A DNA stretch of 64,000 nucleotides, from contig JAPPIB010000052.1 in NCBI GenBank assembly GCA_028820695.1, positions 62,001 to 126,000 on the forward strand. Reading direction: 5' to 3'. Position numbers and translations under genes: made by a program. This DNA comes from Acidiferrobacterales bacterium (GTDB lineage: Bacteria; Pseudomonadota; Gammaproteobacteria; Arenicellales; JAJDZL01). How positions within the stretch are numbered: the stretch's first letter is position 1; every line of letters begins with the position of its first letter. Shown here one piece after another: positions 21,307 to 28,771 of the stretch. Under the pieces are notes generated by a model. It did no database searches. It was not told where the DNA came from and saw only the letters and a list, made by a program, of their open reading frames with translations.

Positions 21307-21756
21307 ATGGTTGACCCCGAACAGAGAACGTTCCTATTCGATCTATGGGAAAAAATTGAGAATAACCACTCACTGAGTTCCATGGAAAAACAAGTCAAGA
21401 AAGTCATCTACATGCATCCGGAAACACACAGCGTATTTTCGAATCGGCAGATTTTTACGACCCATGAATTCGATGCTGATGAACCTGACCCGTTTGCTCA
21501 CATCGGCCTGCACTCGATTGTTGTTGAAATGATCAGCGACGATTCACCGAGTGGAATCCGCTCAGTTTACGATCGATGGGTTGCCCTGACAGGCGACAAG
21601 CATGAAGTTCAGCATGAGATGATGTCCGCTCTTTTTTCCGTACTGATAGAGTCAACCGACGAGATTTCCGATAGTGATGGGGATGCCAGGCTGATGGCCC
21701 TGCTTACCGAAAGACTGAACAATATCATTGATCCATCGCTTGGACACACTGAATAA
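21307..21756 (+). CDS. DUF1841 family protein
   Basis: A 149-residue conserved protein of unknown function. The family signature is the DPFAHIGLHSIVVEM stretch (about 61-75), like the NPFLHMGLHLA of other DUF1841 members. It is acidic, helical and without signal peptide or membrane segments. It follows nth by 23 bases in the same direction, a neighbourhood seen in other gammaproteobacteria, and closes the metG-rnfB-nth operon. Confidence 0.85.
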   Translation: MVDPEQRTFLFDLWEKIENNHSLSSMEKQVKKVIYMHPETHSVFSNRQIFTTHEFDADEPDPFAHIGLHSIVVEMISDDSPSGIRSVYDRWVALTGDKHEVQHEMMSALFSVLIESTDEISDSDGDARLMALLTERLNNIIDPSLGHTE

Positions 21757-22715: not shown

Positions 22716-23756
22716 ATGAAACTGCACAAACTATCTGATGGACTGAAGACCACGTATCGGGAAACGAACCTGGCTCGCCGGGTGCAATTATTCGATAGGT
22801 GGAGTGCCAAGGCATTGTCGGAGGATATCGATACCACCAGCTACGATCACTGCAAGACAGTTGAAGAATATTACGATCTTTGCACCGAGTTTATGGTCTA
22901 CGGTTGGGGCGAGTCCCTGCACTTCGCCCCATTGTCGCCTCAAGAAAGCTTGGCAGATTCCAAGATTCGGCATCAGCGGCTGATGATTGCAAAGCTGGAA
23001 CTAGAAGAAGGCATGTCGGTCATTGATGTCGGTTGCGGAATCGGTGGCCCGATGCGTCGTGTAGTCCGTGAAGCTGGTGTCAGGGTTACTGGAATCAATC
23101 AAAGTGAAGTTCAGTTGGAAAAGGCGACATCGCTTAGTTCCAAGGCACAGATTGACCATATGGTTGACTACGTTGCGTGCAGCTTCATGGATATGAGCGG
23201 TATAGAGGGCGGTTCCTTCGACCGGGGCTATGCGATTGAATCGACATGCCATGCACCGGACAAGGTGAAAGCGTTCAGCGAAATTTACCGCGTATTGAAG
23301 CGTGGTGCCCTTTTCTGGGGTCAGGAAATGTGCATGACGGACAAATTCGACCCCGATGACAATCGGCACCGGGAAATCAAGCGGGAACTCATGCACGGTA
23401 TCGCACTCAAGGAGATCGCGACAACTACTGAGGTTAACCAGGCACTCGAAATGGCCGGTTTCGAGATCGTTGAGGGAAATGACCGTGCTGTTAGCACAGA
23501 GGACGGTCCGTTCACGCCGTGGTACAAACCCATGGAGACTCGGCACGGTGCGATTGGCAACACCTTGTCCCGCACTAAGCTGGGCCGCAAGGTGTTCCTG
23601 GGAGCATCCAGACTGGCCGAGGCGGTGGGTGCTTTCCCGAAAGGCTCGGTGCAGGTCATCCGACTATTGGACCGGACCGCCGATGCCTATGTTGCAGGTG
23701 GTCAGACTGGGATTTTCACCCCGTTATATTGTTTCCTGGCGAGAAAACCTCTTTAA
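22716..23756 (+). CDS. Sterol C24-methyltransferase-like protein (Erg6/SMT family)
   Basis: SAM-dependent methyltransferase of 346 residues with the full architecture of eukaryotic sterol 24-C-methyltransferases, which methylate the sterol side chain. All four SMT signature regions are present: aromatic YGWGESLHF (62-70), SAM-binding IDVGCGIGGP (103-112), acidic YAIESTCHAP (172-181) and FTPWYKP (266-272). The last 65 residues match the Sterol_MT_C domain, ending VAGGQTGIFTPLYCFLARKP. Other bacterial small-molecule methyltransferases share region II but normally lack the others. No squalene epoxidase or oxidosqualene cyclase lies in the window, so the substrate could be a host or environmental sterol, a sterol made elsewhere in the genome, or another lipid. 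The gene is flanked by decayed DNA and a transposase remnant, suggesting transfer. The start is ATG 22716, with no strong ribosome-binding site. Confidence 0.88.
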   Translation: MKLHKLSDGLKTTYRETNLARRVQLFDRWSAKALSEDIDTTSYDHCKTVEEYYDLCTEFMVYGWGESLHFAPLSPQESLADSKIRHQRLMIAKLELEEGMSVIDVGCGIGGPMRRVVREAGVRVTGINQSEVQLEKATSLSSKAQIDHMVDYVACSFMDMSGIEGGSFDRGYAIESTCHAPDKVKAFSEIYRVLKRGALFWGQEMCMTDKFDPDDNRHREIKRELMHGIALKEIATTTEVNQALEMAGFEIVEGNDRAVSTEDGPFTPWYKPMETRHGAIGNTLSRTKLGRKVFLGASRLAEAVGAFPKGSVQVIRLLDRTADAYVAGGQTGIFTPLYCFLARKPL

Positions 23757-24429: not shown

Positions 24430-24690
24430 ATGAAAACACAAAAGGCACTTCTAGCGGCAGCGATTTCTGGCGCCTTGGCACTTGGAACACTTTCCCTATC
24501 AACCGCTGTCAATGCAGATGGCGATAAGGAAAAATGTTACGGTGTAGCGAAAGCCGGTAAAAACGACTGTGCGACGAACAACTCGTCCTGTGCAGGGACA
24601 TCTACCATGGATGACCAAAAAGATGCTTTTGTCGCAGTCCCGAAAGGATTGTGTGAACGACTGACCGGCGGCTCCACGGAACCTAGCTGA
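24430..24690 (+). CDS. bufA: Bufferin-type RiPP precursor (DUF2282)
   Basis: Small exported precursor of 86 residues. A signal peptide (about 1-29, ending VNA) precedes a mature part with four cysteines at 36, 47, 54 and 75, in the DUF2282 arrangement KEKCYGVAKAGKNDCAT ... SSCAG ... PKGLCERL. In the bufferin (gig/buf) systems, a DUF692 enzyme oxidises the central cysteines to thiooxazole-type groups, and the peptide buffers copper in the periplasm. All the partner genes follow directly. The ATG has a good AGGAGA site 6 bases upstream. A TATATT at about 24382 could be a -10 element, but no clear -35 was found. Confidence 0.88.
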   Translation: MKTQKALLAAAISGALALGTLSLSTAVNADGDKEKCYGVAKAGKNDCATNNSSCAGTSTMDDQKDAFVAVPKGLCERLTGGSTEPS

Positions 24691-24721
24691 TCTTTCCTAT
24701 CTCTTGTAGATATGTAGAAGT

Positions 24722-25573
24722 ATGTCACGCAACCCGATACCACAGAATTCAGTCGGAGTCGGGTTGCGTGCACAGCACTATCGGGATGCCATCTCAAATC
24801 CAAAGGCGGTTGACTGGTTTGAGGTTCACAGCGAAAATTACTTTAGACAAGGTGGTGCGCCACATTTTTATCTCAACAAAGTCCGGCAAGATCACCCCAT
24901 CAGTTTTCACGGTGTAGGTCTATCGCTCGGATCAACCGATCCTCTGAATCTCTCTCACCTGACACGGCTCAAGGAGTTGGTAGATATCTATCAGCCAACG
25001 TTGGTTTCTGAGCATCTGTCCTGGAGTTCCGTCGACGGTGTCTATCTGCATGATTTGCTTCCGTTGCCAATGACCGAGGAGTCCCAAAGTCATCTCGCCG
25101 GCCGTATTGGGCAGGTGCAGGACTTCCTGGGACGGCAGATACTGATCGAAAACGCATCTACATATCTGGAATTCTCCCAGTCGCAGATCCCGGAATGGGA
25201 GTTTATCTGTGAAATTTCAAACCGAAGTGGCTGTCGGATTCTATGCGATGTGAATAATGTCTATGTGAACTCGCGCAATCACCGCTTCAGCGCAACTGAG
25301 TTCATCGAGGCCGTGGACCCCGATCTGGTCGGAGAGATTCATCTGTCAGGTCATACGGTCAAACAGCTCGCTGAAGGTGAGATTCGTATCGACACCCATG
25401 ACCAAAGAGTTTGTGATGAGGTGTGGGAGCTATACAGGCTTGCAGTTCGACGATTCAGGCACGCACCGACGCTGATCGAGTGGGACAAGAATTTGCCTGA
25501 CTATTCGGTACTGCTGGATGAGGCCAATACCGCACGGAGCCTCCTGAGCGAATCAACCCATGCACTTGCGTGA
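24722..25573 (+). CDS. bufB: MNIO-family RiPP-modifying enzyme (DUF692)
   Basis: Multinuclear non-haem iron-dependent oxidative enzyme of 283 residues with a TIM-barrel fold. Family motifs in order are GVGLRAQHYRDAI (N-terminal), WFEVHSENYF, SFHGVGLSLGSTDPL, SEHLSWSS, LIENASTYLEF, LCDVNNVYVNSRNH and EIHLSGHT; the His, Glu and Asp in these bind two or three irons. DUF692 proteins such as MbnB and BufB oxidise cysteines of a precursor peptide. The gene lies 31 bases after the DUF2282 precursor and overlaps the DUF2063 gene by 14 bases, the classic bufABC order. The product is cytoplasmic. Confidence 0.93.
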   Translation: MSRNPIPQNSVGVGLRAQHYRDAISNPKAVDWFEVHSENYFRQGGAPHFYLNKVRQDHPISFHGVGLSLGSTDPLNLSHLTRLKELVDIYQPTLVSEHLSWSSVDGVYLHDLLPLPMTEESQSHLAGRIGQVQDFLGRQILIENASTYLEFSQSQIPEWEFICEISNRSGCRILCDVNNVYVNSRNHRFSATEFIEAVDPDLVGEIHLSGHTVKQLAEGEIRIDTHDQRVCDEVWELYRLAVRRFRHAPTLIEWDKNLPDYSVLLDEANTARSLLSESTHALA

Positions 25574-26333
25574 ATTACAGACCCGGTTTTGCCAGCAAGT
25601 CCTGTTCGGTGAGCAAACAGGTGTTGATTCACTGGTCCATCCGGGTGAATTCACCTCAGAACGCCGATTACAGATATATGGAAACAATATAAGGTCAACC
25701 CTCACGGAAAGCCTGCAAAGCATCTATTCCGCCACCGAAGCTATCGTAGGGCGCGACTATTTCAAAATGCTCGCACGTCAATATTTGGTTGATTTCCCTC
25801 CGGAACAAGGCAGTATCCATCAATTTGGCGATCAGTTTGCGCAATTCGTCAAGACCTTCGAGGGATTGGAGAAAATCGCATATCTGACGGATATCGCGTC
25901 GATCGACTGGGCTTACCATACTGCCTTTCACGCACCCTCAGCCCCTTCAGTAAGTGTGAGTTGCCTGGCACGGTTCACTCCGGACGACTACGAGAACTTA
26001 CTGCTCCACCGACATCCATCAGTCACAGTCGTTTCGTCATCGTTCCCGATTTTTGACATCTGGAACTATGCTCAGAATGAATCGGAAGATATTTCTGTCC
26101 CAGACATAAACGCCGCTGCGCAAAATGTGCTGATCGTTCGTAACGATTTGACAGTCGAGGTGATCAATCTGGATAAGGAACTGTCGGTTCTGCTGGACAT
26201 GTGCAGCGAAAACCGCACATTGGGTTTCATGTTAGGCTGTGTAATTGACAGCAATTCTACCTATAATCTGGAAGTTGGACTTCATACTCTATTCTCAACC
26301 GGCGCGGTCCATGATGTTTCGATTGCAAACTGA
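25560..26333 (+). CDS. bufC: MNIO partner protein (DUF2063)
   Basis: DUF2063 protein of 257 residues. The N-terminal helical domain shows the family pattern LRELQTRFCQQVL ... RLQIYGNNIRSTLTESLQSIYSATEAIVGRDYFKMLARQY (split here by description: Y-x-N-N/R-x-x-x-x-L, then FxxLAxxY). In bufferin and related systems this partner recruits the precursor to the DUF692 enzyme. The C-terminal half is less conserved. Translational coupling to bufB through a 14-base overlap supports a shared complex. Confidence 0.88.
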   Translation: MHLRELQTRFCQQVLFGEQTGVDSLVHPGEFTSERRLQIYGNNIRSTLTESLQSIYSATEAIVGRDYFKMLARQYLVDFPPEQGSIHQFGDQFAQFVKTFEGLEKIAYLTDIASIDWAYHTAFHAPSAPSVSVSCLARFTPDDYENLLLHRHPSVTVVSSSFPIFDIWNYAQNESEDISVPDINAAAQNVLIVRNDLTVEVINLDKELSVLLDMCSENRTLGFMLGCVIDSNSTYNLEVGLHTLFSTGAVHDVSIAN

Positions 26334-26368
26334 CACCTGCTCCGGGATAACGAAGACACCTGAAAATT

Positions 26369-26836
26369 ATGTTTAAGAACACTTCGCTTGGCATTTTTTG
26401 CCAACGTATCCTTTGCCTGCTTGACTGTGCCGCGCCCATCGGTGACCTGATTCTGCGAATTTGGGTAGCCAATGTGTTCTGGAAGTCAGGGTTGACCAAG
26501 ATTTCGAATATTGACTCAACCATGTATCTTTTTGAATACGAATACGCCGTGCCAATCATTCCATTTGAACTCGCGGCCTATCTTGCCATTGCCGCCGAAC
26601 TCGTACTGCCGCTAATGCTTGTTTTCGGCTTCGCCGCAAGAGCCGCAGCCGGCGCGCTGTTTGTCTTCAACATTATCGCCGTCGTTTCGTATTCGGCGTT
26701 GAACGCCGTTGGAATTGCCCAACATCAGGTCTGGGGGATAATGTTGCTTGTGCTGCTGTTACGGGGACCGGGACAGATTTCTATTGACTACTTCATTCGA
26801 AAACGTATCCTCGGACATGACTCTCGGAGTCCTTGA
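26369..26836 (+). CDS. bufD: DoxX-family membrane protein
   Basis: DoxX-like inner-membrane protein of 155 residues with four hydrophobic segments. Family text includes GDLILRIWVANVFWKSGLTK at the first helix and AELVLPLMLVFGFAARAAA in the middle. DoxX proteins accompany DUF2282/DUF692/DUF2063 genes in the gig and buf operons; their role is unknown, perhaps in redox or copper handling at the membrane. The stop codon overlaps the start of the radical SAM gene (TGATG), placing both on one message. Confidence 0.85.
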   Translation: MFKNTSLGIFCQRILCLLDCAAPIGDLILRIWVANVFWKSGLTKISNIDSTMYLFEYEYAVPIIPFELAAYLAIAAELVLPLMLVFGFAARAAAGALFVFNIIAVVSYSALNAVGIAQHQVWGIMLLVLLLRGPGQISIDYFIRKRILGHDSRSP

Positions 26837-27858
26837 TGTCGGTTTTCCCAGCAGTTACCCTGGACAGCTGTGTCGAGGAATTCACTGACACATTCGACTC
26901 CACGCGCTTCAGTTTCGCTTCCGCATTGACCCGAAGCGGAATCGGTGAACCGCGGAGGGTTCAGATCCGGGATATTCAAGTCAATGTAGGCAAACTCTGT
27001 AATCAGGCCTGTAACCATTGCCACGTTGATGCCGGTCCCAAACGGACGGAAGTCATGGAATGGGCTACGATGGAGAAAATTGTGCAATGGTGTGCCAGAC
27101 ACGACATCAAGACGGTGGACATCACAGGAGGCGCACCCGAACTCAACCCGAATTTCCGCAAGTTTGCTGAATCCTGCCTGGAAATCGGAGCAAATGTAAT
27201 CTCTCGCTGCAATCTGACCGTCCTGCTTGAACCCGGTCAGGAGTCGCTCGCCGAGTGGTATGCAGACCACAAAATTGCCCTGATCTGCTCCTTGCCGTGC
27301 TACTCAAAAGAAAATCTGGAAGCCCAGCGCGGAAAAGGAGTGTTTCGCAACAGCATACGCGCCTTGCAGATGCTGAACAACCTCAACTACGGACGCGATC
27401 CGGAACTGTCACTGGACCTCGTCTACAACCCGATCGGCGGAACCCTGCCACCGGCACAGTCCGACCTGGAGGCTGCGTACAAGACACGGCTGAGTGAGGA
27501 CTTCGGAATCTGTTTCAACAATCTGTTCACCATCACCAATTTACCGATCAGCCGATTTCGCCACTATCTGGAACGATCCGGGGACTATGAAAATTACATG
27601 AACCTGCTTGTGGAACACTTCAATCCCGACACGGTAGAAGGATTGATGTGCAGGCACATCATCAGTGTTGACTGGTTGGGAAGAATATTCGATTGTGACT
27701 TCAACCAGATGATGGATATCCATGCAGGCTGGCGAAGTCCAAGATATCTTTGGAATTTGACAGCTGCAGAAATCGAAACCGATCGAATCGCATTCGACTC
27801 ACATTGTTTTGGCTGTACTGCCGGTGCCGGAAGCAGCTGTACCGGAACGCTGACCTGA
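26836..27858 (+). CDS. arsS: ArsS-like radical SAM/Cys-rich protein
   Basis: Radical SAM enzyme of 340 residues. The [4Fe-4S] motif CNQACNHCH (CxxxCxxC, about 55-63) is followed by the GGAPELNP SAM-binding strand. The C-terminal DUF3641 region ends CFGCTAGAGSSCTG, the Cys-rich motif of the rSAM (seleno)protein ArsS family; some members carry selenocysteine at its first position, but here it is cysteine. ArsS is linked to arsenosugar formation in organisms that also have ArsM; no arsM is visible here. The ATG at 26836 overlaps the DoxX stop, so the gene appears to belong to the bufferin operon. It could therefore act on the same peptide or on a small molecule; that is inference. A TTG at 26833 is the only other close start. 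Confidence 0.85.
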   Translation: MSVFPAVTLDSCVEEFTDTFDSTRFSFASALTRSGIGEPRRVQIRDIQVNVGKLCNQACNHCHVDAGPKRTEVMEWATMEKIVQWCARHDIKTVDITGGAPELNPNFRKFAESCLEIGANVISRCNLTVLLEPGQESLAEWYADHKIALICSLPCYSKENLEAQRGKGVFRNSIRALQMLNNLNYGRDPELSLDLVYNPIGGTLPPAQSDLEAAYKTRLSEDFGICFNNLFTITNLPISRFRHYLERSGDYENYMNLLVEHFNPDTVEGLMCRHIISVDWLGRIFDCDFNQMMDIHAGWRSPRYLWNLTAAEIETDRIAFDSHCFGCTAGAGSSCTGTLT

Positions 27859-27893: not shown

Positions 27894-28643
27894 TCACCCA
27901 TCTGCCTCAGCGTGCATTCTTTGCCGTACGACTTCAAACGCGGCGATACCCACAGCCACTGAAACATTGACACTCTGAACGTCTCCCAGCATAGGAATTG
28001 AAATCAATGAGTCACACTTTTTCTTGGTTTCCGCTCTCAGCCCCCGGTCTTCCGCACCGAAAACAAGCGCACAGGGATGTGTCAGGTCAGATGCAAAAAT
28101 AGGATCGGAAGTTTCAGTATCGAGTCCGATCACCCAGATTCCATTTTTCTTCAGATTCTCAAGATCACGCGCCAGATTGGATGCCTGGTATAGATTTGTG
28201 ACTTCCGCCGCACCAGCGGCCGTATGAGAAACCGTGGCCGTAAGCGGACTTCCGCGCGAACGGCTTACAATGACACCGTCCGCACCCGCCGAATTCGCAC
28301 TCCTTATGCAGGCTCCAAGATTTCTGGGGTCAGTGACGCTATCCAAAACGATCAGCAGGGACTGGTTTTTCAAAGAGTTGAACCAGTCGTTCAAATTGGC
28401 AGAGGGGCGAAGTTTCTCTGAACGACAAGTCAATATCACTCCTTGATGTCGGACACCTTCAGATGCTTCGTTCATGACTTCACTTGCGATGCGTCGAACC
28501 GGGATACCCTGTTCCGTCGCGAGTTTCTCAATCTGACGTATCCGCCTGTCATTCCTGCTTTCGCTCAAGTCAATCGATACGACCTCCCGGGTTTTGTATC
28601 GGATCATGGAAAAGGCGTTGTGGATTCCGAAAACTTTTCGCAT
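27894..28643 (-). CDS. rlmB: 23S rRNA 2'-O-methyltransferase RlmB (SpoU family)
   Basis: SPOUT/TrmH-type RNA ribose methyltransferase, predicted to make Gm2251 in 23S rRNA. The three SPOUT motifs are visible: DSVTDPRNLGACIRSANSAG, ALVFGAEDRGL and IPMLGDVQSVNVSVAVGIAAFE, the last forming the knotted SAM site. The N-terminal substrate-binding domain begins KVFGIHNAFSMI. The frame is open back to 28724, but starting at ATG 28643 gives the usual RlmB N-terminus and a normal length of 249. It converges with the ArsS gene 35 bases away. Confidence 0.93.
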   Translation of the reverse strand: MRKVFGIHNAFSMIRYKTREVVSIDLSESRNDRRIRQIEKLATEQGIPVRRIASEVMNEASEGVRHQGVILTCRSEKLRPSANLNDWFNSLKNQSLLIVLDSVTDPRNLGACIRSANSAGADGVIVSRSRGSPLTATVSHTAAGAAEVTNLYQASNLARDLENLKKNGIWVIGLDTETSDPIFASDLTHPCALVFGAEDRGLRAETKKKCDSLISIPMLGDVQSVNVSVAVGIAAFEVVRQRMHAEADG

Positions 28644-28771
28644 TCTTCTGACTGGCAATATATCGTGTATAGATGTATAGGAATTTTGCTCACTCTCGTT
28701 GCCAGCTTGAAGGCATCGAGTCACAATTCAGGTGAAGTGTACAGGAAAATCAAGCGGCATATCGAGGTTGT

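Follow-up and report, generated by a model that had tools for sequence, protein, structure and literature searches.

The window analyzed here (a 64,000-nucleotide stretch of contig JAPPIB010000052.1, assembly GCA_028820695.1, from an Acidiferrobacterales bacterium) carries a bufferin operon, bufA-bufB-bufC-doxX, directly followed by arsS, the gene for an ArsS-family radical S-adenosylmethionine (SAM) protein. Comparison with related genomes shows that two modules of known kinds have been kept side by side, a conserved but unremarkable arrangement, and it is probable, judging from the sequences, that these are functionally separate modules in one transcription unit and not one peptide-making system. 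A tight, widely conserved operon can easily suggest a new hybrid enzyme system even though its parts are mutually dispensable.

The bufABC-doxX cassette would yield a thiooxazole peptide of the known Buf1 (bufferin/captophorin) type that binds copper in the periplasm, and arsS would be the older resident of a conserved neighborhood, metG-rsxB-nth-FIST-DUF1841-...-arsS. Some lineages have the cassette between nth/DUF1841 and arsS, and others lack it. ArsS would transfer the 5'-deoxyadenosyl group of SAM onto an arsenical and work with an unlinked TIGR04283/TIGR04282 glycosyltransferase pair in an arsenosugar-type pathway; these chemistries are inferred from what is known of the two families. 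In genomes with the cassette, the bufA promoter probably drives arsS through read-through; under stress from thiophilic metals this may induce the two together, either incidentally or to some mild benefit.

The buf operon and arsS in the window

The five genes of the cluster are as follows.
24430 to 24690, plus strand: bufA, Buf1/DUF2282 bufferin precursor, 86 amino acids (PF10048, 83 bits)
24722 to 25573, plus strand: bufB, MNIO bufferin maturase, 283 amino acids (NF050167 MNIO_BufB, 382.7 bits, cut-off 310)
25560 to 26333, plus strand: bufC, DUF2063 partner protein, 257 amino acids (PF09836, 64.9 bits, cut-off 27.2)
26369 to 26836, plus strand: doxX, DoxX protein of bufferin clusters, 155 amino acids (PF07681, 67 bits, above cut-off)
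26836 to 27858, plus strand: arsS, radical SAM protein, 340 amino acids from the ATG in TGATG (TIGR04167, 432.5 bits, cut-off 300)

The bufferin operon proposed in the original prediction is confirmed, and is of Buf1 type, by matches of all four genes to their family models: a four-cysteine DUF2282 precursor, an adjacent MNIO (72 bits over its curated cut-off), and DUF2063 and DoxX genes stand together in the window. The four cysteines of BufA follow a signal-like N-terminus (the signal was judged by eye only), and BufA falls under the NCBIfam BufA2 cut-off, as is expected for the DUF2282 (Buf1) family; DoxX resembles HvfX but remains under the cut-off of that model (NF050144, 60.6 bits versus 80). 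ArsS likewise displays the marks of its own family, combining a TIGR04167 score above cut-off with the CX3CX2C motif (CNQACNHC) and a Cys-rich DUF3641 domain (PF12345, 183.7 bits).

All five genes are co-directional and lie head to tail from 24430 to 27858, separated by gaps of 31 and 35 bp and joined by two overlaps. The bufB/bufC overlap spans 14 nucleotides, whereas the doxX stop codon TGA (26834-26836) and the arsS start codon ATG (26836-26838) have a single base in common within the TGATG noted in the original prediction; the sequence around 26832 reads CCTTGATGTCG. Because the packing from bufA to arsS is so tight, a single transcript for bufABC-doxX-arsS is likely, in keeping with the one message first proposed for buf and arsS; a scan for promoters and terminators gave results near chance level.

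In the bufferin family, BufB together with BufC converts bufferin cysteines to thiooxazoles that bind periplasmic copper, and a proposal places Buf1 (DUF2282) clusters among the captophorins (PMC12452194, PMC13097082). The window operon matches such clusters in its precursor (signal-like N-terminus, four cysteines), MNIO, DUF2063 and DoxX genes and in their textbook order, but differs in having arsS behind them. A survey of MNIO clusters, which makes no mention of ArsS, found that further conserved genes accompany bufferin clusters only extremely rarely (PMC12452194); an arsS neighbor of a bufferin cluster appears to be undescribed in the literature searched, as the original prediction had supposed.

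Conserved adjacency and mutual dispensability

The order to which the window's genome belongs (Arenicellales, which includes Arenicella) is represented by 109 genomes, 80 of which carry arsS. In 23 of the 109 (23/80 carriers), drawn from five families, arsS stands behind bufABC-doxX: six are of the window's own genus, ten of family f2, two of f5, two of f6 and three of f8. Outside the order but within the class, two f122 genomes have the same adjacency. It is therefore not unique to the window's genome, and chance adjacency in one genome is ruled out by this distribution. Comparison of the arsS and bufB match coordinates repeatedly places arsS about 1.4 kb downstream of bufB on the same strand, and the bufA-bufB-bufC-doxX-arsS order was verified by tblastn; on one truncated contig (G019), bufC and doxX precede arsS instead. 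The cluster ends with arsS in every linked genome.

The full gene order is metG-rsxB-nth-(FIST)-(DUF1841)-[bufABC-doxX]-arsS, often followed by convergent rlmB. In the window, metG, rsxB and nth lie further upstream of the DUF1841 gene, and the cassette and arsS are framed by two conserved flanks.
21307 to 21756, plus strand: DUF1841 gene, conserved on the left side of the cassette (PF08897, gene order)
27894 to 28724, minus strand: rlmB-like gene, convergent conserved right flank, kept at the empty site (PF00588, TIGR00186, gene order)

Sites without the cassette read metG-rsxB-nth-arsS with convergent rlmB in family f3 (L273, L274), DUF1841-arsS with convergent rlmB in family f7 (L241), and FIST-DUF1841-arsS in family f12 (L243); families f9 and f11, as well as one f2 genus (L242), have nth followed by arsS, again with no buf genes, and a Muproteobacteria metagenome-assembled genome (MAG; L131) has DUF1841-doxX-arsS with no bufABC. 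Conversely, bufABC sits behind metG-rsxB-nth-DUF1841 with no arsS in L270 (family f60), and L229, L231, L232 and L271 have complete bufABC-doxX operons that lack arsS. In genomes of the Arenicella family, arsS lies at the nth locus, and a bufA-bufA-bufBC-doxX operon is found at another site. As ArsS occupies the same locus without buf, and buf occurs without ArsS, each module lives without the other; ArsS is neither co-conserved with a precursor gene nor absent where one is missing, which argues against its dependence on the peptide.

The ArsS tree, with 152 proteins, unites the sequences from the nth locus in one clade (46 rows; Shimodaira–Hasegawa-like approximate likelihood ratio test, 100) in which buf-linked and unlinked proteins are intermixed, the buf label requiring seven changes over the tree. 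In the BufB tree, the linked Arenicellales operons cluster (91/92), as expected for vertical inheritance, and the two f122 operons stand apart (row L130, labeled unlinked by the script, is the same operon as L081).

Several variations on these loci were observed. In an Arenicella-like family (G028, L279 2050-3654), BufB and BufC are fused into a protein of ~534 amino acids (MNIO and DUF2063), encoded downstream of a tandem bufA pair and upstream of doxX; similar long frames are found in other f11 genomes. In an Acidiferrobacterales MAG (L132, 5739-9874), arsS follows genes for an HvfB-type MNIO and its DUF2063 partner, a glutamate-synthase-domain protein and an HvfX-type DoxX, which make up a different MNIO cluster at the locus used by the buf cassette, and a glutamate-synthase-domain gene also lies beside HvfB and HvfC in L270. 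Finally, between the DUF1841 gene and bufA the window has a methyltransferase gene (22716-23756) whose product ends in a sterol-methyltransferase domain (PF08498). It was not seen at other buf-arsS loci and so looks like a recent insertion in the window's lineage.

ArsS, the arsenosugar glycosyltransferases and ArsM

ArsS tracks the glycosyltransferases of arsenosugar synthesis. Among 60 genomes, 46 have both ArsS and TIGR04283, 11 have neither and three are discordant (Fisher p = 2.6e-9), two of the three being assemblies less than 90% complete. Both glycosyltransferases (TIGR04283 and TIGR04282) are present in 21 of 22 buf-linked genomes. In the window's genome (G000), the pair lies at C49:125293-126554 beside argG, unlinked to arsS; in L131 and L132, the pair and argG lie, convergent, directly behind arsS, which suggests that arsS and the glycosyltransferase pair were once neighbors. 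That ArsS still serves an arsenosugar-type pathway is the simplest account of this pattern. In the window's genome the pair is followed by two lipid-A-type acyltransferase-like genes, with argG in front (L211 7265-10590); such genes also lie behind the pair in G002, and one does in G009, so a lipid link of the glycosyltransferase pathway is possible.

ArsS catalyzes radical SAM adenosylation of arsenic in partnership with ArsM, according to the passages of PMC12159101 and PMC8552651 that draw on Cheng 2021 and Xue 2019. The window resembles the ArsM-ArsS-TIGR04283-TIGR04282 arsenosugar clusters (L098 is a same-order example) in the above-cut-off TIGR04167 score, motif and Cys-rich C-terminus of its ArsS and in the presence of both glycosyltransferases in its genome. 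It differs in that the glycosyltransferases occupy another locus beside argG, arsS sits behind bufABC-doxX, and no ArsM was detected. The arsM that the original prediction proposed to seek elsewhere in the genome was found neither with the NF008823 profile at 1e-15 nor with a full ArsM protein query at 1e-5 (the assembly is 97.6% complete, and the protein query recovers all of the known ArsM types tested, at 5e-16 or better where the gene is intact).

A strong ArsM match is likewise absent from 17 of the 22 buf-linked genomes tested. Across the order, ArsM went undetected in most buf-linked members tested and in several others, while good matches away from arsS occur in family f11 and in one f9 genome; f11 members and G013 have a full ArsM. 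The missing ArsM is a puzzle independent of buf, and a testable one, with most genomes of the order holding ArsS and both glycosyltransferases and most of the buf-linked ones tested lacking ArsM. Since ArsS and the glycosyltransferases are kept, either imported methylated arsenic or a different substrate would feed the pathway, or another methyltransferase would stand in for ArsM. The 22716-23756 methyltransferase was rejected for this role: arsenite methyltransferase models score it at only ~22-28 bits, ArsM proteins have no match in the window, and the gene is absent from other buf-arsS loci. A class-wide ArsM survey that scored eight candidates per genome missed the known ArsM of G172 and was not used as evidence.

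Alternative accounts of the adjacency

Two observations weigh against functional separation of the modules into a bufferin operon and a complete arsenosugar-type pathway. Firstly, the doxX-arsS gap is 0-85 bp in 23 of the 23 loci measured, tighter than most nth-arsS gaps at buf-less loci (54 to several hundred bp), a hint that co-expression has been selected. Secondly, with no ArsM in the window's genome or in those 17 buf-linked genomes, the completeness of the arsenosugar pathway is open to doubt.

The tight gaps favor a selected metal(loid)-stress operon, in which the bufferin would take periplasmic copper and ArsS would detoxify an arsenical without the proteins acting on each other, one signal inducing both because copper and arsenic co-occur and attack thiols. 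Retention of the adjacency across five families, despite identities falling to ~55% for ArsS and ~30% for BufC, points the same way, as does a co-occurrence of buf and ArsS in the order that is above chance (Fisher p = 0.009). However, the metG-rsxB-nth neighborhood is equally well kept, so retention of gene order is not special to this pair; only 23 of the 80 ArsS genomes of the order are linked to buf; no regulator gene was seen inside the cassette; and the operon holds no other arsenic gene. We consider such selection conceivable but doubtful. If copper co-induction were true, it would link copper buffering to organoarsenic metabolism in these bacteria.

The absence of ArsM from most genomes of the nth-locus clade, given a query that finds every known type tested, raises a change of substrate: ArsS of this clade, buf-linked or not, would adenosylate something other than dimethylarsenite, such as another thiophilic or sulfur compound, and TIGR04283/TIGR04282 would then glycosylate the adenosylated product. 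Two changes typical of the clade are consistent with this: Trp takes the place of Phe at position 142 (trimmed numbering), and the Ala of the ASLPC motif has become Cys. Against it, the clade retains 80 of the 86 canonical ArsS columns (those conserved to 95% or more among ArsS that have ArsM or glycosyltransferase genes as neighbors), the motif cysteine is also present in canonical ArsS beside ArsM (L200) and beside TIGR04283 (L159), family f11 members and G013 possess a full ArsM, and methylated arsenicals can be imported. On balance a changed substrate seems unlikely, and its extreme form, in which an ArsM-less ArsS places a 5'-deoxyadenosyl group on a sulfur or metal adduct of the bufferin to give an adenosylated thiooxazole peptide, is more unlikely still. 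The CSLPC motif was also considered as a mark of buf-linked ArsS and rejected, as it is typical of the nth-locus clade in its entirety and is also present in a few ArsS of canonical type.

The doubly modified peptide first put forward, with ArsS as a second maturase acting beside the MNIO on one precursor, is very improbable: although arsS shares a message with a single precursor gene and closes the cluster in every linked genome, and although radical SAM enzymes are common among maturases of ribosomally synthesized and post-translationally modified peptides (RiPPs), the dissociation of the modules in both directions, the lack of co-varying residues, the association of ArsS with the glycosyltransferases, and scores below 38 bits with peptide maturase models (versus 432.5 bits as ArsS) all speak against it. 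RiPP clusters whose maturase is a radical SAM enzyme (those of the sactipeptide, epimerase and similar families) do share with the window the joining of radical SAM and precursor genes in one operon, but differ in that ArsS is conserved without any precursor gene. Comparison of ArsS with solved structures matched only the generic radical SAM core.

The residue comparisons accord with two independent neighbors, for which ArsS would not be expected to act on the peptide. Some specialization would be expected of an ArsS recruited to a peptide, yet, within the nth-locus clade, the 22 buf-linked ArsS differ from the 24 others by a fixed residue in none of the columns, and no BufA residue is exclusive to the precursors of arsS-linked operons. 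A candidate precursor signature for these operons, DCQTxNSSCAGTS ... VGGS, was discarded, since the window has DCATNN and similar precursors occur without arsS. Two further details were noted: genome G002 (L062 6559-7625) has two near-identical tandem bufA copies, one with two extra C-terminal cysteines, and genome G029 (L075 13636-13854) carries a fragment matching the Cys-rich C-terminal end of ArsS ~2.5 kb behind the full arsS.

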